Assembly: GCA_035645145.1 (NCBI GenBank)
Contig: DASQNC010000036.1
Location: 1 to 64,000, forward strand
Source: Azospirillaceae bacterium
Lineage (GTDB): Bacteria > Pseudomonadota > Alphaproteobacteria > Azospirillales > Azospirillaceae
Length of the DNA: 64,000 nucleotides
Direction of reading: 5' to 3'
Shown here: positions 2,812-12,364 of the stretch, in pieces
Position numbering within the stretch: position 1 is the stretch's first letter
Layout of the letters: each line of letters starts with the position of its first letter
Notes under the pieces: model-generated
The model's database searches: none
What the model was told of the DNA's origin: nothing
Seen by the model: the letters and a program-made list of their open reading frames with translations, nothing else
Made by a program: the position numbers and the translations under genes

Positions 2812-2909
2812 GGCGGCCATCAGCACCCGGTCGCAAACCGGGAACATACCCTACCCTGGCGGCGTTCGGCGGGTGAGATACGCAACCGCGCGGATGCAGG
2901 GCGAGGGGT

Positions 2910-4028
2910 ATGTCCAAGACGATCCTGATCACAGGCGGAGCCGGGTTCATCGGCTCGCATCTGGCAGACCAGCTGCTGGCCACCGGCCACCGCGTCAGGG
3001 TCCTCGACACGCTTGAGCCACAGGTTCACGGCGAAGAGGGCAAACGGCCGGGCTATCTGGCGCCGGACGTGGAATTGCAGGTCGGCGACGTCCGCGACGC
3101 CACAGCGGTCGCACGTGCGCTGGACGGCGTGGACGCCGTGTACCACTTCGCGGCCCGCGTCGGCGTGGGCCAGAGCATGTACATGATCGCCGACTACGTC
3201 AGCGGCAACGACCTCGGCACCGCGGTGCTGCTGGAGGCGCTCAAACGGAATCCGGTCGAACGCCTGATCGTCGCGTCGAGCATGAGCCTGTATGGCGAGG
3301 GCCTGTACCTGGACGCCGACGGCCGGACGATCGCCAACGCGACCCGCGACCCGGCCCGGCTGGCCGACGGCATGTGGGATCCCATGGACGCCCGGGGCCG
3401 CCCGCTCACCCCGATCCCGACGACCGAGGAGAAGCAGCCGGACTTGGTCTCGGTCTATGCGCTGGGCAAGTACGTGCAGGAGCGGCTTTGCCTTGTGGTC
3501 GGGGGCGCCTACGGCATCCCCACCGTGGCCTTGCGCTTCTTCAACGTCTACGGCACCCGGCAGGCCCTCTCCAACCCGTACACGGGCGTGATGGCGATCT
3601 TCGCCTCGCGCCTACTGAACAACAACCCGCCCCTGATCTTCGAGGACGGGGGGCAGCGCCGGGACTTCGTCCACGTCACCGACGTGGCACGGGCTTGCGC
3701 CCTGGCGCTCGACGCGCCGAACGCCGCCGGACAGGTCCTCAACATCGGCAGCGGCCAGAGCTACACGGTCAAGGAAGTCGCCTCCCATTTGGCCACGGCC
3801 CTGGGCAAGACGCACATCGCGCCCGAAACCACCATGCGTGCCCGCACCGGGGACGTGCGCCACTGCTTCGCCGACATCACCCGGGCGCGGGATGTGTTGG
3901 GATACCGGCCGCAGGTCGGCATCGAGCAGGGTATGGCCGAACTGGTCGAGTGGCTGGCGGGACAGACGGCCGTCGACCGTGTGGAGGAGGCGCGGCGCGA
4001 GCTGGCAACCCATGGGCTGACGCGATGA
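2910..4028 (+). CDS. NAD-dependent epimerase/dehydratase (extended SDR), nucleotide-sugar type
   Basis: A 372-aa extended short-chain dehydrogenase. The NAD-binding motif TGGAGFIG is at 8-15. DV at 60-61 and the HFAAR segment (79-83) follow. The catalytic Ser lies in VASSMSLYG, with Y183 and K187 in SVYALGKY. The substrate-side motifs FFNVYGTRQ and GGQRRDFVHVTDVA are typical of UDP-glucose/GlcNAc 4-epimerase-like enzymes. It probably interconverts or dehydrates a nucleotide sugar that feeds the glycosyltransferases downstream. The exact sugar cannot be read from sequence. First gene of a seven-gene operon; its stop overlaps the next start (ATGA at 4025-4028). The ribosome site GGCGAGGGG precedes the ATG. 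Confidence 0.88.
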   Translation: MSKTILITGGAGFIGSHLADQLLATGHRVRVLDTLEPQVHGEEGKRPGYLAPDVELQVGDVRDATAVARALDGVDAVYHFAARVGVGQSMYMIADYVSGNDLGTAVLLEALKRNPVERLIVASSMSLYGEGLYLDADGRTIANATRDPARLADGMWDPMDARGRPLTPIPTTEEKQPDLVSVYALGKYVQERLCLVVGGAYGIPTVALRFFNVYGTRQALSNPYTGVMAIFASRLLNNNPPLIFEDGGQRRDFVHVTDVARACALALDAPNAAGQVLNIGSGQSYTVKEVASHLATALGKTHIAPETTMRARTGDVRHCFADITRARDVLGYRPQVGIEQGMAELVEWLAGQTAVDRVEEARRELATHGLTR

Positions 4029-5185
4029 AGAAGCCCGTCGCGCCAATGCCGGCAGCCCAACCCTCGAGGACAGGGCCCTCGAGGACAGGGCCCTCGAGGA
4101 CAGGGCAACCGGCCGGACCGGTCCTTGTCACCGGGGGGGCCGGCTTCGTCGGCACCAATGTGGTCGACCGCTTGGCAGGGCAAGGCGTACCGGTGATCCT
4201 CTACGATTCGCTGGTGCGTCCCGGCGTTTCGGAAAACCTGGAATGGCTGAAGCGGCGACACGGCAGCCGAATCGACGCCCGGATCGCCGATGTGCGCGAC
4301 ACCGCCCGCCTCGAGCAGGCCGTGCGCGAGGCCCAAACGATCTACCACTTCGCGGCCCAGGTCGCGGTGACGACGAGCCTGGTGGATCCGACGGAGGATT
4401 TCGCCGTCAATTGCGCCGCCACCGTCGCGCTCCTGGAGGCGATGCGCCGCACGCCGAAGCCACCGACCCTGGTCTTCACCTCGACCAACAAGGTGTACGG
4501 CTCGCTGCCCGACGTGCCGGTCCAAAACGCCGGCCGGCGCTGCGAGCCCGTCGACGCGGACCTGGGGGGCAAGGGCGTCGGCGAGACCTGCCGGATGGAC
4601 TTCCACAGCCCCTATGGCTGCTCGAAGGGTGCGGCGGATCAGTACGTTCTGGATTACGCCCGCTGCTTCGACCTGCCCACCGTCGTGCTGCGCATGAGCT
4701 GCATCTACGGCCCCCACCAGCGTGGGAACGAGGACCAGGGTTGGGTCGCGCATTTCGTCATGCGGGCCCTGGCTGGCGAGCCGATCACCATCTACGGCGA
4801 TGGGCGGCAGGTCCGCGATGTGCTGTTCGTGGACGACCTGGTGGATCTGATGCTGGTCGCCGGAGCCCCGGGTTCCCCTCTCGTCGGCAAGGCGGTCAAT
4901 GTCGGTGGCGGCCCGCGCAACGCGGTCAGCCTGCTCGAAGTGGTCGACGCGCTGCAGGATCTGGCGGAGTCGCCGGTCCGGGTACGGTTCGGGGCCGCCC
5001 GCCCGGGTGACCAACGCTGGTACGTGTCGGACGTGAGCCGCGTCGCGGCGGTCACGGGCTGGCAACCACGGGTGGGCGTGCGCGAAGGGCTTGCCCGGCT
5101 CTGCGCGTGGCTGCGCGAAACCCGCGCCGACCCGGCCCGCCCCCCGCTTGCGAAAGCCATCGCCGTCGGGGGGGCCGCCGAATGA
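4025..5185 (+). CDS. NAD-dependent epimerase, CDP-paratose/tyvelose 2-epimerase-like
   Basis: A 386-aa extended SDR. After a 30-residue N-terminal extension made largely of three PSRTG repeats comes the Rossmann motif TGGAGFVG (36-43). Then YDSLVRPGVSENLEWL, AQVAVTTSLVDP, TSTNKVYGS, DFHSPYGCSKGAADQYVLDY (catalytic Y197 and K201) and DQGWVAHF follow. This string of motifs closely follows CDP-tyvelose/paratose 2-epimerase (RfbE/TyvE), which inverts C2 of a CDP-3,6-dideoxyhexose. No CDP-dideoxyhexose synthesis genes are in this window, so the true substrate may differ. The start was chosen because its ATG overlaps the stop of the preceding gene; the frame is open further upstream but antiparallel to no function. 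The stop overlaps the radical SAM start. Confidence 0.85.
   Translation: MKKPVAPMPAAQPSRTGPSRTGPSRTGQPAGPVLVTGGAGFVGTNVVDRLAGQGVPVILYDSLVRPGVSENLEWLKRRHGSRIDARIADVRDTARLEQAVREAQTIYHFAAQVAVTTSLVDPTEDFAVNCAATVALLEAMRRTPKPPTLVFTSTNKVYGSLPDVPVQNAGRRCEPVDADLGGKGVGETCRMDFHSPYGCSKGAADQYVLDYARCFDLPTVVLRMSCIYGPHQRGNEDQGWVAHFVMRALAGEPITIYGDGRQVRDVLFVDDLVDLMLVAGAPGSPLVGKAVNVGGGPRNAVSLLEVVDALQDLAESPVRVRFGAARPGDQRWYVSDVSRVAAVTGWQPRVGVREGLARLCAWLRETRADPARPPLAKAIAVGGAAE
4061..4105 (+). repeat. Three perfect 15-bp tandem repeats inside a coding region
   Basis: The unit CCCTCGAGGACAGGG occurs three times head to tail. It is in frame and encodes PSRTG three times in the N-terminal extension of the SDR at 4025-5185. 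A change in copy number would keep the frame. Confidence 0.97.
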
Positions 5186-6465
5186 GGGTCGCACTGGTCA
5201 ATCCACCCTGGAATTTCGACGGCAGCATCTATTTCGGCTGCCGCGACCCGCACCTGCCCATTGAACTCGCTTGTGCGAAGATCCGCCTGGAGGAGGCCGG
5301 CCACACGGCGGAAATGTTCGATGCACACCTGTGCGACCTGACATTCGCCGGGTTGCGGGACCAGGTGGCGGCATTCGCGCCGGACATGCTGGTGGTCACC
5401 ACCGCCCCCACATACCTGTTTTGGCGCTGCGCACCACCCGAACTGCGCATCCCCCGCCAAACGCTCGGCGCGTTGGCGGGCGTGGCGGCACGCACTGTGG
5501 CCGTCGGTCCCCATGGCTCCACCACGCCGCGGGCCGCCCTGGCGAAGCTCGGCGTCGATGCGGTCGTTCAGGGCGAGTGCGAGGACATCCTGCCACTCCT
5601 GTGCGACAATGACTGGTCGCAGGTGCCATCGATCGCCTACCGGACCCCGGACGGCCCGGTGGTGAACGGAGGGCCGGCGGTCGGCCGCTTCACCGACCTG
5701 CCGCCGCTGGCATGGCCGGACGAATGGATCCGGCGCCACCACCACCACCACCACCGGTTCGACGCACCGCCGTCCGGTCCCGGGGCCGAGGTGGAAGCGT
5801 CGCGCGGCTGTCCGTACAAGTGCACGTTCTGCGCCAAGGAAAACTTCCGCAACGGTTACCGCCGCCGCCCGCACGAAACGGTTCTGGCGGAGGTGGATCG
5901 GCTGATCGGCCAGGGCATCCAGTACATCTACTTCATCGACGAAATCTTCCTGCCCAACCGCCCGCTGCTGGAGGGCCTGGTCGAGCGTGGCGTGACGTTC
6001 GGCATCCAAACCCGCATCGACCTGTGGAAGCCGGACCTGCTGGAACTGCTGGGCCGGGCCGGCTGCGTGTCCATTGAGGCCGGCGTTGAAAGCCTGACGG
6101 TCGAAGGCCGGGCGGCACTGGACAAGAACTGCAAGATGCAGACGGACGAGTTGGCCGACCGGTTGATCCTCGCCAAACGGCACGTTCCCTTCGTCCAGGC
6201 CAATCTGATCGACGCCGGGGGCGATCCCCCCGAACTGGTGGCGGCCTGGCGGGAAAAACTCCTGGCGCAAGGGGTTTGGGCGAACGAGCCGGTGCCGTTG
6301 TTCCCCTATCCCGGCTCGCCGGACTACCGCCGCCTCTGGGGCCAGCCCGACGATCAGGCATGGGAGCGCGCCCATGCCCATTACCTGGAGAGCGCCCGCC
6401 GTTGGAGCGACATCCAGGACCAGGCCCCGCGCCCGTTGCGGGAGCTGGAGACCTGCTGTGGATGA
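5182..6465 (+). CDS. B12-binding domain / radical SAM protein
   Basis: A 427-aa class B-type radical SAM enzyme. Residues 1-140 form the cobalamin-binding Rossmann domain (VALVNPPW start, then IELACAKIRLEEAGH, ending VVQGECEDIL). It lacks the DxHxxG His ligand, as is usual in this class. The 4Fe-4S cysteines are C210, C214 and C217 in RGCPYKCTFCAKE, followed by IYFIDEIFLP and the SIEAGVES motif. Such enzymes methylate unactivated carbons or rearrange carbon skeletons. Set among sugar epimerases and glycosyltransferases it probably modifies a sugar or glycan intermediate; this is inference. H186-H191 form a natural run of six histidines just ahead of the radical SAM core. The ATG overlaps the upstream stop, which fixes the start. 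Confidence 0.88.
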   Translation: MRVALVNPPWNFDGSIYFGCRDPHLPIELACAKIRLEEAGHTAEMFDAHLCDLTFAGLRDQVAAFAPDMLVVTTAPTYLFWRCAPPELRIPRQTLGALAGVAARTVAVGPHGSTTPRAALAKLGVDAVVQGECEDILPLLCDNDWSQVPSIAYRTPDGPVVNGGPAVGRFTDLPPLAWPDEWIRRHHHHHHRFDAPPSGPGAEVEASRGCPYKCTFCAKENFRNGYRRRPHETVLAEVDRLIGQGIQYIYFIDEIFLPNRPLLEGLVERGVTFGIQTRIDLWKPDLLELLGRAGCVSIEAGVESLTVEGRAALDKNCKMQTDELADRLILAKRHVPFVQANLIDAGGDPPELVAAWREKLLAQGVWANEPVPLFPYPGSPDYRRLWGQPDDQAWERAHAHYLESARRWSDIQDQAPRPLRELETCCG

Positions 6466-6531
6466 TCCACCGACCAACGGCCCCCCGCCCGCCGTTGCAA
6501 ACCATCCTCCTGCCGCCCCGCGGGTCGGGCC

Positions 6532-7674
6532 ATGACGGTCCACCGGATCCTCATGACCGCCGATTCGCTGGGCGGAGTCTGGGACTATGCGTTGGAGCTG
6601 GCCGCGGGCCTGACGCCCCATGGCATCACGGTGGATCTGGCGGTCATGGGACCGCCGCCTGGCCCGCACCAGCGTGTCGCCGCGGCGACGGTGCCCGGCC
6701 TGGTTCTGCACGAGGGGACCTTCCGGCTGGAGTGGATGCCGGATTGCGAGGGGGATCTGGCGCACGCCGCAGACTGGCTGCTGGAGCTTGAACAACGGGT
6801 GCGCCCGGATGTGGTCCACGCCAACGGCTACGCCGAGGCCGCCCTGCCCTTTGCGGCGCCGGTGCTGCTTGTCGCCCATTCCGACGTCGCGACCTGGTGG
6901 CGGGCCGTCCACGGAAGCGACCCGCCCGCGGAGTGGACGGCCTATCGACACCGGGTTGCCGCCGGGCTGGCCGCCGCGGCGCAGGTGGTGGCGCCGACAC
7001 GGGCCTATCTGGATGCGGTCTCCGCCGCCTATGGCGCCCCGGCCCGCTCCAATGTGATTCACAACGGCCGCTCCGCACGGCTCTGGCGGCCGCTGGACAA
7101 GGAGCCGTTCGTGCTGGCCGTCGGACGGCTTTGGGACGAGGGGAAGAACACGGCCGCGCTCAGCCGCGTCGCCGGTTCCCTCGACTGGCCGGTGGTGGTC
7201 GCCGGTCCCTGGCAGGGACCGGATGGGCGTGGACGGCCGCCGGAGGGCCTGCGCTGCCTGGGCCGGCTGGCCCCGGCCGAACTCGCGCAATGGTTCGGCC
7301 GGGCCGCCGTGTTCGCCCATCCCGCCCGCTACGAGCCGTTCGGCCTGTCCGTGCTGGAGGCCGCCCTGTCGGGTTGCGCGCTGGTGCTGGGCGATATCCC
7401 CACCCTGCGCGAATTGTGGCAGGGGGCAGCCCTCTTCGTCCCGCCGGACGATTCCGATGCCCTTCGGGAAACACTGGCCGGGTTGGGCGAGGACCCGGAG
7501 GCGGTATCGGCGCTTTCGAAGGCTGCACGCCACCGCGCCGCGAATTATCCGGCCGCACTCTCGGCAGCCGCCTACGCCCACGCCTACGGTCGCCTGCATG
7601 CAGGCGCGGACGCATCGGCCGCACGACACGTCGCGACCGCGGGAATCCTGCCGGAGGTCCAACCGGGAACCTAA
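6532..7674 (+). CDS. Glycosyltransferase, GT4-type (GT-B fold)
   Basis: A 380-aa protein with a two-Rossmann GT-B layout. The N-terminal acceptor domain begins RILMTADSLGGVWDYALELA. The C-terminal donor domain contains NVIHNGRSARLW, VLAVGRLWDEGKN and the EX7E-type element EPFGLSVLEAALSGC (about 265-280), which contacts the donor sugar nucleotide. It probably transfers a sugar onto a lipid-linked or protein-bound glycan in the cytoplasm. It lies 66 nt after the radical SAM gene and 8 nt before the first CgeB-like gene, in the same operon. Confidence 0.88.
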   Translation: MTVHRILMTADSLGGVWDYALELAAGLTPHGITVDLAVMGPPPGPHQRVAAATVPGLVLHEGTFRLEWMPDCEGDLAHAADWLLELEQRVRPDVVHANGYAEAALPFAAPVLLVAHSDVATWWRAVHGSDPPAEWTAYRHRVAAGLAAAAQVVAPTRAYLDAVSAAYGAPARSNVIHNGRSARLWRPLDKEPFVLAVGRLWDEGKNTAALSRVAGSLDWPVVVAGPWQGPDGRGRPPEGLRCLGRLAPAELAQWFGRAAVFAHPARYEPFGLSVLEAALSGCALVLGDIPTLRELWQGAALFVPPDDSDALRETLAGLGEDPEAVSALSKAARHRAANYPAALSAAAYAHAYGRLHAGADASAARHVATAGILPEVQPGT

Positions 7675-7682
7675 GGGACAGC

Positions 7683-8825
7683 ATGCGCCTCGTCTTCTTC
7701 GTCCACTCCATCCTGTCCTGCTGGAACCATGGCAACGCCCACTTCCTGAGGGGCGTTGCCCGCGACCTGCTGGCACGTGGCCACGAGGTGCGGCTCTACG
7801 AACCGCACGACGGATGGAGCCGCACGAATCTGCTCTCCGAGCAGGGCCATGCCCCGTTGGACGAGATCACCGGCCTGTTCCCGGGACTGGCACCGACGTT
7901 CTACGACGCGCAGGCCATCGACCTGGACGAGGCGTTGGACGGGGCGGACGCGGCCCTGGTCCACGAATGGACCGATCCGGCCCTGGTCGCGCGAATCGGC
8001 CGGATGCGGGCGGCGGGCCACCCCTGCCGCCTTCTGTTCCACGACACCCACCACCGTGCCGTGACGGCGGCGGACGAAATGTCCCGCTATGATCTGTCGG
8101 CCTTCGACGGCGTGCTCGCATTTGGGGCGGCGCTGGCGGAGGTCTACCGGGCACGTGATTGGGGCCGCCGCGTCTGGGTCTGGCACGAGGCCGCCGACAC
8201 CCGCCTGTTCCGCCCCATACCCGGCCGGGCCACCGAGGGCGATCTGGTCTGGGTGGGGAACTGGGGCGACGACGAGCGCTCGGAGGAATTGCGGCAGTTC
8301 CTGATGGCCCCGGTCCGAAGCCTGGGCCTCAAGGCGCGCGTCCACGGTGTGCGCTGGCCCGGGGCCGCGCTGCGGGAACTGGAAGCGGCCGGGATCGACT
8401 TCGCCGGCTGGCTCCCGAACCACCGCGTGCCCGATGCCTTTGCACGGCACAGGGTCACCGTGCATGTGCCGCGACGGCCCTATGCCGAGGCTCTGCCGGG
8501 CATCCCCACCATCCGGGTTTTCGAGGCACTCGCCTGCGGCATCCCCCTGGTTTCGGCGCCGTGGCGGGATGCCGAAGGGCTGTTCCGACCGGGCACCGAC
8601 TACCTTGTCGCGCGCAACAGCGACGAGATGACCGCCCATCTGCGCGCCGTCCTGTCCGATCCCGGCCTTGCCGAGAGCTTGGCGACCAATGGCCTTCGGA
8701 CCATCCGCGCGCGCCACACCTGCGCCCACCGGGTGGACGAGCTGCTGAACGTCCTGTCCGAGGTGGGCGCCCACCCGACCCATGAGCCGGGCGTCCGCCT
8801 GGGCTCCGACCTGGCAGCCGACTGA
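7683..8825 (+). CDS. CgeB-like glycosyltransferase 1 of 3
   Basis: A 380-aa GT-B glycosyltransferase of the spore-coat CgeB type. The N-terminus has the signature shared by all three copies: HSILSCWNHGNAHFLRG, then LLARGHEVRLYEP. The donor domain carries VWVGNWGDDERSEELRQFL and IPTIRVFEALACGIPLVSA. It is the most divergent of the trio (HNR and RPY rather than the WSP/RLFEA form). The start 8 nt after the GT4 stop was chosen over longer in-frame openings because the conserved hydrophobic strand MRLVFFVHS begins there, and the ribosome site is AAGGGACAGC. The sugar donor and acceptor are unknown. Confidence 0.82.
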   Translation: MRLVFFVHSILSCWNHGNAHFLRGVARDLLARGHEVRLYEPHDGWSRTNLLSEQGHAPLDEITGLFPGLAPTFYDAQAIDLDEALDGADAALVHEWTDPALVARIGRMRAAGHPCRLLFHDTHHRAVTAADEMSRYDLSAFDGVLAFGAALAEVYRARDWGRRVWVWHEAADTRLFRPIPGRATEGDLVWVGNWGDDERSEELRQFLMAPVRSLGLKARVHGVRWPGAALRELEAAGIDFAGWLPNHRVPDAFARHRVTVHVPRRPYAEALPGIPTIRVFEALACGIPLVSAPWRDAEGLFRPGTDYLVARNSDEMTAHLRAVLSDPGLAESLATNGLRTIRARHTCAHRVDELLNVLSEVGAHPTHEPGVRLGSDLAAD

Positions 8826-9904
8826 TGACAGCACTCAACATCGCCTTCTTCGGATCCAGCCTCGTCTCGGCCTATTGGAACGGGGCGGCCACCTACTACC
8901 GCGGCATGCTGAAGAACCTGGCCGCGCGCGGACACCGCATCACCTTCTACGAACCGGACGCCTACGACCGGCAAAAGCACCGCGACATGCCGGATCCGGA
9001 CTGGGCCCGGGTGGTCGTGTACGCGCCCGACGAGGGCGCCGCCCTGGCCTGCCTGGAAGAGGCCAAGGCGGCGGACGTGCTCGTCAAGGCCAGCGGGGTG
9101 GGCGTCCTGGACGCCTTCCTGGAACAGGGGGTTCCCGCCGTGCGCCGCCCGGACGCCCAGGCGATCTTCTGGGATGTTGACGCACCGGCCACGCTCGCGC
9201 GCGTCAATGGCGATCCGGACGATCCCTTCCGCAACGAGATCCCCCGCTACGACCGCATCCTCACCTACGGTGGCGGTCCGCCGGTCGTCACCGCGTACAA
9301 GGCGTTGGGCGCCCGGAGCTGCGTCCCGGTTTACAACGCGCTCGATCCCGATACCCACCACCCGGTTCCGGTCGATCCGGACTTGGCCGCCGACCTGACG
9401 TTCCTTGGCAACCGCCTGCCCGACCGCGAAGCGCGGGTGGAGCAGTTCTTCCTGAACGCGGCGGCCGCCCTGCCCGCCCGGCGCTTCATCCTCGGCGGCG
9501 CCGGCTGGGAGGACAAGCCCATCCCGGAAAACGTGCGGCGCCTGGGACACGTGTTCACCGCCGACCACAACCGGCTGAACGTGTCGGCATGCGCGGTGCT
9601 GAACATCTGCCGCGAAAGCATGGCCCAGACCGGCTATTCCCCCCCGACCCGCGTGTTCGAGGCGGCCGGCGCCGGTGCCTGCGTGGTGACCGACCATTGG
9701 GTCGGGGTGGAACAGTTCTTCGAACCCGGCAGTGAAATCCTGGTCGCCCGGAGCGGGGCCGAGGTGGCCGGGATTGTCGGGGAGCTCGACCCCGCACGCG
9801 CCCGGAGCATCGGCGAAGCGGCACGGCGCCGCGCACTCGCCGACCACACCTATGCCCGCCGAGCCGCGCAGGTCGAGGGGCTGTTGACGGGAGTTGCCGC
9901 ATGA
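8825..9904 (+). CDS. CgeB-like glycosyltransferase 2 of 3
   Basis: A 359-aa CgeB-type GT-B glycosyltransferase. The N-terminal signature is FGSSLVSAYWNGAATYYRG and LAARGHRITFYEPD. The middle has FWDVDAPATLARV and RYDRILTYGGGPPV. The C-terminal donor domain has LTFLGNRLPDREARVEQFF and PTRVFEAAGAGACVVTDHW. It is clearly paralogous to the following gene, sharing the RDMP(D/E)P element and the VDAPATL/IDTPVTL segment. The start overlaps the preceding stop by one base (TGATG), so translation is coupled. Confidence 0.85.
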   Translation: MTALNIAFFGSSLVSAYWNGAATYYRGMLKNLAARGHRITFYEPDAYDRQKHRDMPDPDWARVVVYAPDEGAALACLEEAKAADVLVKASGVGVLDAFLEQGVPAVRRPDAQAIFWDVDAPATLARVNGDPDDPFRNEIPRYDRILTYGGGPPVVTAYKALGARSCVPVYNALDPDTHHPVPVDPDLAADLTFLGNRLPDREARVEQFFLNAAAALPARRFILGGAGWEDKPIPENVRRLGHVFTADHNRLNVSACAVLNICRESMAQTGYSPPTRVFEAAGAGACVVTDHWVGVEQFFEPGSEILVARSGAEVAGIVGELDPARARSIGEAARRRALADHTYARRAAQVEGLLTGVAA

Positions 9905-10983
9905 GGATCGTCGTCCTGGGCCTGTCGATCACCTCGTCCTGGGGCAACGGTCACGCCACCACGTGGCGGGCGCTGATCCGGGCATTGTCGGCCCGCGGCC
10001 ACCGGGTCACGTTCCTGGAGCGCGACCAGCCCTGGTACGCGGACAACCGCGACATGCCGGAACCGCCGTTCTGCCGAACCCACCTCTACGACTCGCTCGG
10101 CGGGCTGGAACAGCGCCACGCGCAGGCCGTGGCCTCGGCCGATCTGGTGGTCGTCGGATCGTACGTGCCCGACGGGATCGCGGTGATCGACTGGGTACTG
10201 GCCACCGCGCGCGGTCAAGTTGCCTTCTACGACATCGACACGCCGGTCACGCTGGCGAAGCTGGATGCCGGCGGCTGCGGCTATCTCTCGGCGGCGCAGA
10301 TGCCGCGGTTCGATCTGTACTTTTCCTTCACCGGCGGCCCCACCCTGGACCGTCTGGCCCGGGATTACGGTGTGCGCCGGCCTCGCGCCCTCTACTGCTC
10401 CGTCGACCCGGAGATCCACAAGCCGATCCCCGGCCCGTGGACATGGGATCTGGGATATCTCGGCACCTATAGCCCCGACCGGCAGCCCATGCTGGACCGG
10501 CTGCTGACCGAACCGGCGCGGCGCCTGCCGGATCGGCGGTTCGCGGTGGCCGGGCCGCAATACCCCGACGACATCCGCTGGCCCGGGAACGTGGAGCACA
10601 TCGCCCACCTGGGCCCCGATCTGCACCGGTCCTTCTACTGCGCCCAACGGTTCACGTTGAACGTCACGCGCGCGGACATGACGGCGGCCGGCTGGTCGCC
10701 CAGCGTCCGCCTGTTCGAGGCCGCCGCGTGCGGGGTGGCGATCCTGAGCGACCGCTGGGAGGGGCTCGACACGCTGTTCACGCCCGACCGGGAAATCCTG
10801 ATCCGGGACCGGTCGGAGGAGGTCGTCGACCTTCTGCAACGGTTGTCCGATGCGGAGGTGCGGGCGATCGGGGCGCGGGCCCGGGCGCGCATCCTGGCGG
10901 CCCACACCTCGGCCCACCGGGCCCAGGAACTGGAACGCCAAGTCGCGGAAAGCGCCGTCAGCCGCCGGGCCGTCCCAGCCTGA
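9901..10983 (+). CDS. CgeB-like glycosyltransferase 3 of 3
   Basis: A 360-aa paralogue of the preceding gene. It has LGLSITSSWGNGHATTWRA, LSARGHRVTFLERDQPWY, FYDIDTPVTLAKLDAGGC, DLGYLGTYSPDRQPMLDRL and WSPSVRLFEAAACGVAILSD. Its start lies in an ATGA overlap with the previous stop. It is the last gene of the operon, and its 3' end overlaps by 26 bp the convergent gene at 10958-11404. Three back-to-back paralogues with separate sequences suggest successive additions of sugars to one acceptor rather than simple dosage. Confidence 0.85.
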   Translation: MRIVVLGLSITSSWGNGHATTWRALIRALSARGHRVTFLERDQPWYADNRDMPEPPFCRTHLYDSLGGLEQRHAQAVASADLVVVGSYVPDGIAVIDWVLATARGQVAFYDIDTPVTLAKLDAGGCGYLSAAQMPRFDLYFSFTGGPTLDRLARDYGVRRPRALYCSVDPEIHKPIPGPWTWDLGYLGTYSPDRQPMLDRLLTEPARRLPDRRFAVAGPQYPDDIRWPGNVEHIAHLGPDLHRSFYCAQRFTLNVTRADMTAAGWSPSVRLFEAAACGVAILSDRWEGLDTLFTPDREILIRDRSEEVVDLLQRLSDAEVRAIGARARARILAAHTSAHRAQELERQVAESAVSRRAVPA

Positions 10984-11809: not shown

Positions 11810-12364
11810 ATGTCTGAAGGCCGGATCGCGTTCGTCCTCGGTGGGGCACGGTCCGGCAAAAGCCGGCACGGGTTGGCGCTTGCGGAGGCGCTGCCCTCGC
11901 ACAGGCGTGTGTTCGTGGCGACCGCGCAGGCCCACGACGCCGAAATGGCCGACCGCATCGACCGGCACCGGGCGGAACGGGACGCGAGCTGGACGACCGT
12001 CGAAGCGCCGCTCCATCCGGCACAAGCCTTGGCAACGGAGGCGGTGCCCGGGACCGTGGTCGTGGTCGATTGCCTTACCCTTTGGCTGAGCAATCTGATG
12101 CTGGCGGAGCGCGACGTCGATGCGGCCGCCGCGGACCTCGTCGCCGCCGCGCAGGCTGCCGGTGGGCCGGTCGTCCTGGTCGCCAATGAGGTCGGGCTGG
12201 GCATTGTGCCGGACAATGCGTTGGCACGGCGTTTCCGGGATCATGCCGGGCGGCTCAACCAGCAGGTCGCCGCCATCGCCGACCTGGTCCGGTTCATGGT
12301 CGCCGGGCTGCCGATGGATTTGAAACGGCCGGAGTCCGGGCCCTGGTCGGGAGGCGTCCTGTGA
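11810..12364 (+). CDS. cobU: Adenosylcobinamide kinase / guanylyltransferase
   Basis: A 184-aa CobU/CobP enzyme. It phosphorylates adenosylcobinamide and then transfers GMP to give AdoCbi-GDP, needed for salvage and for the late steps of B12 synthesis. The P-loop FVLGGARSGKSRHGLALAE (8-26) and the second motif VVVVDCLTLWLSNLMLAE, followed by VLVANEVGLGIVPDNALARR, are typical of the family. Length is normal. The only cobalamin pathway gene in the window; controlled by the riboswitch upstream. Its stop overlaps the GTG start of the TonB-like gene (GTGA), so the two are coupled. Confidence 0.95.
   Translation: MSEGRIAFVLGGARSGKSRHGLALAEALPSHRRVFVATAQAHDAEMADRIDRHRAERDASWTTVEAPLHPAQALATEAVPGTVVVVDCLTLWLSNLMLAERDVDAAAADLVAAAQAAGGPVVLVANEVGLGIVPDNALARRFRDHAGRLNQQVAAIADLVRFMVAGLPMDLKRPESGPWSGGVL

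Follow-up and report, generated by a model that had tools for sequence, protein, structure and literature searches.

What does a bacterium assemble with two nucleotide-sugar enzymes, a B12-type radical S-adenosylmethionine (SAM) protein and four glycosyltransferases encoded in one operon? The locus that raises this question lies at positions 2910-10983 of a 64,000-nt stretch of DNA from an Azospirillaceae bacterium (contig DASQNC010000036.1, positions 1 to 64,000; hereafter the window). Based on the collective comparison with related loci, it is well supported that the seven genes are half of a larger, widely conserved system, and likewise that the operon, to judge from a recurrent promoter motif, would often be placed in Alphaproteobacteria under control of sigma-EcfG, that is, of the general stress response. 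We put at roughly 50% the probability that the whole represents a route, belonging to the general stress response, to a soluble oligosaccharide of inositol and xylose, to which the B12 enzyme optionally adds a C-methyl group. The second pathway half, the sigma-EcfG-type promoter and the existence of clusters lacking the radical SAM gene are points beyond a preliminary description of the locus made from the sequence alone.

The operon, its conservation and its partner genes

The seven open reading frames are all intact and lie on the forward strand. They are listed here together with the motifs to which the text returns (SDR, short-chain dehydrogenase/reductase).

2841..2866, +, sigma-EcfG-type promoter motif GGAAC-N17-CGTT, GGAACATACCCTACCCTGGCGGCGTT, 44 nt before the SDR1 start codon
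2910..4028, +, SDR1, NAD-dependent nucleotide-sugar epimerase/dehydratase, 372 aa (PF01370/PF16363; nearest solved relatives mostly UDP-sugar 4-epimerases)
4025..5185, +, SDR2, CDP-tyvelose 2-epimerase homologue, 386 aa (PF01370/PF16363; PDB-family match)
5182..6465, +, B12-rSAM, TIGR04295 B12-binding-domain radical SAM protein, 427 aa (714.6 bits)
5737..5754, +, six-histidine run of B12-rSAM, residues 186-191, ahead of the radical SAM domain (invariant in the alignment)
5809..5832, +, CxxxCxxC [4Fe-4S]/SAM motif of B12-rSAM, C210, C214 and C217 (invariant in the alignment)
6532..7674, +, GT4 glycosyltransferase, 380 aa (PF13439/PF00534)
7683..8825, +, CgeB-like glycosyltransferase 1 (CgeB1), 380 aa (PF13524, 133.5 bits)
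8825..9904, +, CgeB-like glycosyltransferase 2 (CgeB2), 359 aa (PF13524, 138.1 bits)
9901..10983, +, CgeB-like glycosyltransferase 3 (CgeB3), 360 aa (PF13524, 144 bits)

The junctions, in gene order, measure -4, -4, +66, +8, -1 and -4 nt (four overlaps, two gaps). The preliminary description had delimited the same seven genes as one unit on the strength of five junctions that overlap or leave gaps under 70 nt; the single unit stands, and the count is corrected to all six. Scanning for sigma-70 promoters and terminators gave no signal exceeding chance. The family assignments made at the time are borne out by domain and profile matches, with SDR1 and SDR2 classified as extended SDRs and CgeB1-3 each exceeding the PF13524 gathering score. 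SDR2 scores 251.8 bits against CDP-tyvelose 2-epimerase (next PDB family, 127) and retains STNKVYG, SPYGCSKGAADQY and the catalytic Tyr/Lys in identical form; alignment to RfbE, the CDP-tyvelose/paratose 2-epimerase (PDB 1orr, 9rl0), covers nearly the entire domain, catalytic motifs included. Unlike the RfbE setting, the clusters here showed no genes of a CDP-hexose 4,6-dehydratase pathway, so SDR2 probably acts on another nucleotide sugar. The start of SDR2 contains an SRTGP low-complexity repeat (window 4055-4105) that none of the few relatives inspected has. GT4 is the least conserved among the seven proteins (37-58% identity over the loci).

Scanning of named genomes yielded 80 homologous loci, with the complete seven-gene set in 69 and the identical order in 64; loci deviating from the full set or order are mostly truncated by contig ends. 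Given these numbers, the seven genes occur together more often than chance would have it, and the search for the same gene order, proposed earlier as a check, thus came out in favour of a conserved glycan-building unit in which four GT-B-type transferases and a B12-type radical SAM protein are combined with enzymes acting on nucleotide sugars; absence of the seven-gene group from every relative, which would have refuted the earlier description, is not what the loci show. The loci span three phylum-level groups (Alphaproteobacteria, Cyanobacteriota and Acidobacteriota), with carriers including Azospirillum, Skermanella, Methylobacterium, Bradyrhizobium (among them B. japonicum in8p8, L089), Belnapia, desert-crust cyanobacteria (cyanobacterial copies L086, L092, L103 and L118) and Acidobacteriota. 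Plasmid-borne copies are found in Azospirillum, Bradyrhizobium, Tistrella and a Geminicoccaceae bacterium. Identity of B12-rSAM between phyla amounts to 59-71%. A tree of SDR1, CgeB1 and CgeB2, obtained by a quick method with support from the Shimodaira-Hasegawa-like approximate likelihood ratio test (SH-aLRT) only, nests the cyanobacterial and acidobacterial rows within alphaproteobacterial ones and scatters Azospirillum over several clades, a pattern consistent with horizontal spread.

Clustering of neighbouring frames, family scans and annotated records identified a recurrent set of partner genes: inositol-3-phosphate synthase (INO1), a histidine-phosphatase-family protein, a fourth CgeB (CgeB4), a nucleotidyltransferase, a TIGR04290 methyltransferase, a glycosidase-like triosephosphate isomerase (TIM) barrel annotated as 'beta-xylosidase', UDP-xylose synthase (UXS) and, mainly in Bradyrhizobium, phosphopentomutase. 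UXS is an additional SDR whose assignment is clear (363 bits to UXS1); INO1 was matched by the mycothiol model TIGR03450 at 522 bits, under its cut-off of 638. The partners adjoin the operon or share it in Bradyrhizobium, Methylobacterium and Azospirillum. In the window's genome, INO1, CgeB4, the nucleotidyltransferase, TIGR04290 and the glycosidase-like barrel are grouped on contig C15 and UXS lies on contig C45; histidine phosphatase was not found at the C15 partner locus. TIGR04290 and TIGR04295 go together: in a draw of 399 Pseudomonadota genomes, TIGR04290 is present in all 10 that are TIGR04295-positive and in 4 of the 389 others. Among 17 TIGR04295 genomes, 16 contain TIGR04290 above cut-off (it is missing in G022) and 14 contain INO1. 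We estimate the whole conserved glycan pathway at 12-15 genes. Azospirillum sp. RU38E (G022, locus L119) carries the operon without both TIGR04290 and INO1, the sole such case in the 17.

Stress promoter and regulation

In Alphaproteobacteria, sigma-EcfG governs stress tolerance and symbiosis, and its promoter consensus is GGAAC-N16/17-CGTT, as represented by the motif ahead of SDR1. Recurrence was scored as GGAAC-N15-18-GTT within 300 nt upstream of the unit. Among alphaproteobacterial units, 62 of 100 have the motif, whereas 89 letter-permuted motifs average 2.1; the permuted control with the most units (33) probably reads the same Bradyrhizobium site (GGAACGAAC...) shifted by one or a few bases. 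When Bradyrhizobium is excluded, the motif is retained at 30 of 68 units (control, 1.4), and in a second set of loci, fetched once the motif had been fixed, it precedes 5 of 16 (control, 0.42). Cyanobacteria and acidobacteria lie beyond the one class from which sigma-EcfG is known, and none of their 12 units has the motif. The window's genome contains genes for PhyR (L163) and EcfG-like sigma factors, and in Tistrella an EcfG-like sigma gene is situated immediately upstream of the operon.

The EcfG-like sigma factors of the window's genome (G000) comprise at least four paralogues (L159-L162), and the copy on contig C25 has its own upstream GGAAC-N17-CGTT motif. Matches inside genes of this genome (e.g., C15:198343, within CgeB4) were not counted as promoters; the genes beside the other genomic matches revealed no clear stress regulon.

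The B12 radical SAM protein

B12-rSAM is a full-length member of TIGR04295 (B12_rSAM_oligo, NCBIfam; cut-off 400, model positions 1-422), a family whose name suggests a connection with oligosaccharide loci made earlier by its curators. The information attached to the TIGR04295 model covers neither partner genes nor a stress promoter nor clusters devoid of the radical SAM gene, all three of which come from the current analysis. The predicted structure (mean predicted local distance difference test score, pLDDT, 87.9) resembles, over nearly its full length, TsrM as the top and cobalamin-bound match, followed by MgmA, OxsB, AprD4, CysS and TokK; a profile search likewise returned TsrM first, with AprD4 second (38.9 bits). 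With the C-methylases TsrM, MgmA, CysS and TokK, the protein shares a predicted N-terminal Rossmann domain, the radical SAM barrel and the CxxxCxxC motif. Its identity to these four is 14-20%, and it differs from them in its hexahistidine run and in the additional cysteines C20, C83 and C295, all of which are invariant, as is CxxxCxxC, in an alignment of 27 B12-rSAM sequences from three phyla (A2). The histidine run is natural, and it would resemble a purification tag.

Clusters that lack the enzyme are informative about its place in the pathway. The four TIGR04290-positive, TIGR04295-negative genomes among the 389 (G168, G302, G320 and G420) retain SDR1, SDR2, GT4, CgeB1-3, UXS, the methyltransferase and the barrel; only about 50-80 nt separate the SDR2 and GT4 matches, and genome-wide search found no TIGR04295 gene in any of the four. 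On the tree, the radical-SAM-less clusters require at least three changes, repeated loss of the gene being the straightforward reading. The radical SAM gene is hence dispensable across genomes, and from its absence in four complete clusters we infer that B12-rSAM probably tailors a product formed without it by the rest of the pathway and is unlikely to make the founding sugar. The earlier proposal that the enzyme gives rise to a branched or C-methylated sugar is retained in part: C-methylation, the commonest reaction among the fold neighbours, is plausible, whereas a founding-sugar role is unlikely.

Window positions 11810-12364, which begin 826 nt past the end of the operon, encode an adenosylcobinamide kinase/guanylyltransferase (CobU, 192 bits); synthesis or salvage of cobalamin by the host is therefore probable.

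Proposed pathway and its alternatives

In the pathway proposed, the seven genes would be responsible for glycan assembly and make up one half of a conserved system that is often controlled by sigma-EcfG. The partner half would provide inositol phosphate (INO1), a phosphatase in many relatives, UDP-xylose (UXS) and the methyltransferase, with the nucleotidyltransferase, sometimes together with phosphopentomutase, leading to another nucleotide sugar. SDR1 and SDR2 would epimerise one or two nucleotide sugars, from which GT4 and the CgeB-type enzymes (four or five transferases) could assemble a short oligosaccharide in the cytoplasm, the simplest acceptor being inositol or inositol phosphate. TIGR04290 would methylate the product, and the TIGR04295 enzyme, using SAM, an iron-sulphur cluster and probably cobalamin, would introduce one late modification, most likely a C-methyl group. 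The end product would be a soluble stress-protective glycan. Solubility is favoured because no flippase, polymerase, ligase or ATP-binding cassette (ABC) exporter family is among the recurring genes of the neighbourhoods examined, which agrees with a cytoplasmic product; the preliminary description had, on account of the missing flippase, polymerase and ligase, favoured a cytoplasmic protein or lipid acceptor.

There are analogies to known systems. The mycothiol pathway (INO1, MshA, phosphatase) follows the same logic of inositol phosphate, GT4 transferase and phosphatase; it differs in that no deacetylase or cysteine ligase was seen here and that GT4 matches MshA weakly (27.1 bits). The four or five transferases together with UDP-xylose synthase suggest an oligosaccharide, unlike mycothiol. 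Trehalose synthesis by otsBA of Bradyrhizobium under sigma-EcfG likewise involves a soluble stress-protective sugar (PMC8092242), compared to which the product predicted here would be a far more elaborate heteroglycan.

Several observations weigh against the proposal or single steps of it. Across the genome, the strict promoter motif outnumbers the reversed pattern only slightly (66 sites versus 49), so that a single site proves little and the weight rests on recurrence; those units of Methylobacterium and Azospirillum argentinense that were examined have no strict motif upstream, and a PF18557 search for NepR in the window's genome gave no match. Regarding the partner genes, three TIGR04295 genomes (G022, G037 and G352) yielded no INO1 and one (G022) has no TIGR04290; here, moreover, the inositol partner sits on a separate contig, and its acceptor role rests on co-occurrence. 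Regarding the B12 enzyme, the Pfam B12-binding model PF02310 scores 24.8 bits, below its cut-off of 32.1, and AprD4, one of the fold neighbours, is a dehydratase rather than a methylase. The last two points also speak for the enzyme dehydroxylating or ring-rearranging a sugar or cyclitol, as do AprD4 (on paromamine) or OxsB (on a nucleotide), the latter being another of the nearest fold neighbours. With the methylase TsrM as the top fold and profile match, and MgmA, CysS and TokK being methylases as well, we regard such chemistry as a tentative possibility; it covers one step and is compatible with the rest of the proposed pathway.

A different fate of the product appears rather unlikely, namely that it decorates a surface molecule (lipopolysaccharide core, O-antigen side branch, exopolysaccharide or flagellin), with attachment encoded outside the cluster. 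Loci for surface glycans commonly combine epimerases with transferases of the CgeB and GT4 types, and the signs of horizontal spread (mixed phyla, several Azospirillum clades, plasmid copies) are typical of them; yet none of the export and ligation families recurs in the neighbourhoods examined, gene order and sequence vary unusually little for such a locus (as seen in the radical SAM identity between phyla), and both an inositol-phosphate synthase and a stress promoter are unusual in that setting. Flagellin, which the preliminary description had considered as acceptor, is rejected in a general role because cyanobacteria, which have no flagella, carry the operon; nor is any flagellar gene annotated in four plasmid neighbourhoods. 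Bradyrhizose O-antigen was considered for its inositol link; the breadth of taxa that carry the operon speaks against it. Quite improbable in our view is a glycolipid or modified membrane lipid, such as a hopanoid or inositol phospholipid carrying sugar residues, that is assembled on a cytoplasmic lipid acceptor. Such a product would make export genes unnecessary, inositol phosphate could serve as its head group, and several carrier genera produce hopanoids; lipid-synthesis or hopanoid genes, however, do not recur in the neighbourhoods read, and no CDP-alcohol phosphatidyltransferase was seen there.

The proposal of a soluble, stress-induced oligosaccharide has importance for the understanding of sigma-EcfG. 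In B. diazoefficiens, the sigma-EcfG regulon comprises more than 100 genes and trehalose accounts for only part of the mutant phenotype (PMC8092242). A glycan pathway with a sigma-EcfG-type promoter is a testable candidate for functions beyond trehalose, and the radical SAM family TIGR04295 gains a pathway context together with natural deletion variants. More speculatively, and with considerable doubt, the product could be a stress metabolite not described before: an oligosaccharide that is primed by inositol, contains xylose, bears both O- and C-methyl groups and is formed as part of the general stress response. If so, rhizobia, azospirilla, methylobacteria, soil-crust cyanobacteria and acidobacteria would have it in common, and it would be a candidate sigma-EcfG effector other than trehalose. 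We found no paper on the cluster, on TIGR04295 or TIGR04290, or on the gene combinations among the open-licence literature. The protein family had been catalogued before; apparently new are the division of the pathway into two parts, its stress promoter and the clusters that naturally lack the radical SAM gene.

Lastly, the glycosidase-like barrel shows a rearrangement of its own. In some relatives, SDR2 is fused to this barrel; it is unfused here. The standalone barrel (L084:5466-6413) is a circular permutation of the SDR2-fused one (L103:7902-8936): fused-barrel residues 138-323 match the N-terminal part of the standalone protein and residues 34-135 its C-terminal part. A fold search with the permuted barrel returned generic TIM-barrel matches only; both catalytic-type glutamates (WNEP, SEVG) are retained. 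In Skermanella (L055:8067-8930, L138), the barrel fused to SDR2 looks degenerate (WNEP to AATP, TETG to TATG), and a permuted copy is present at an unlinked locus.

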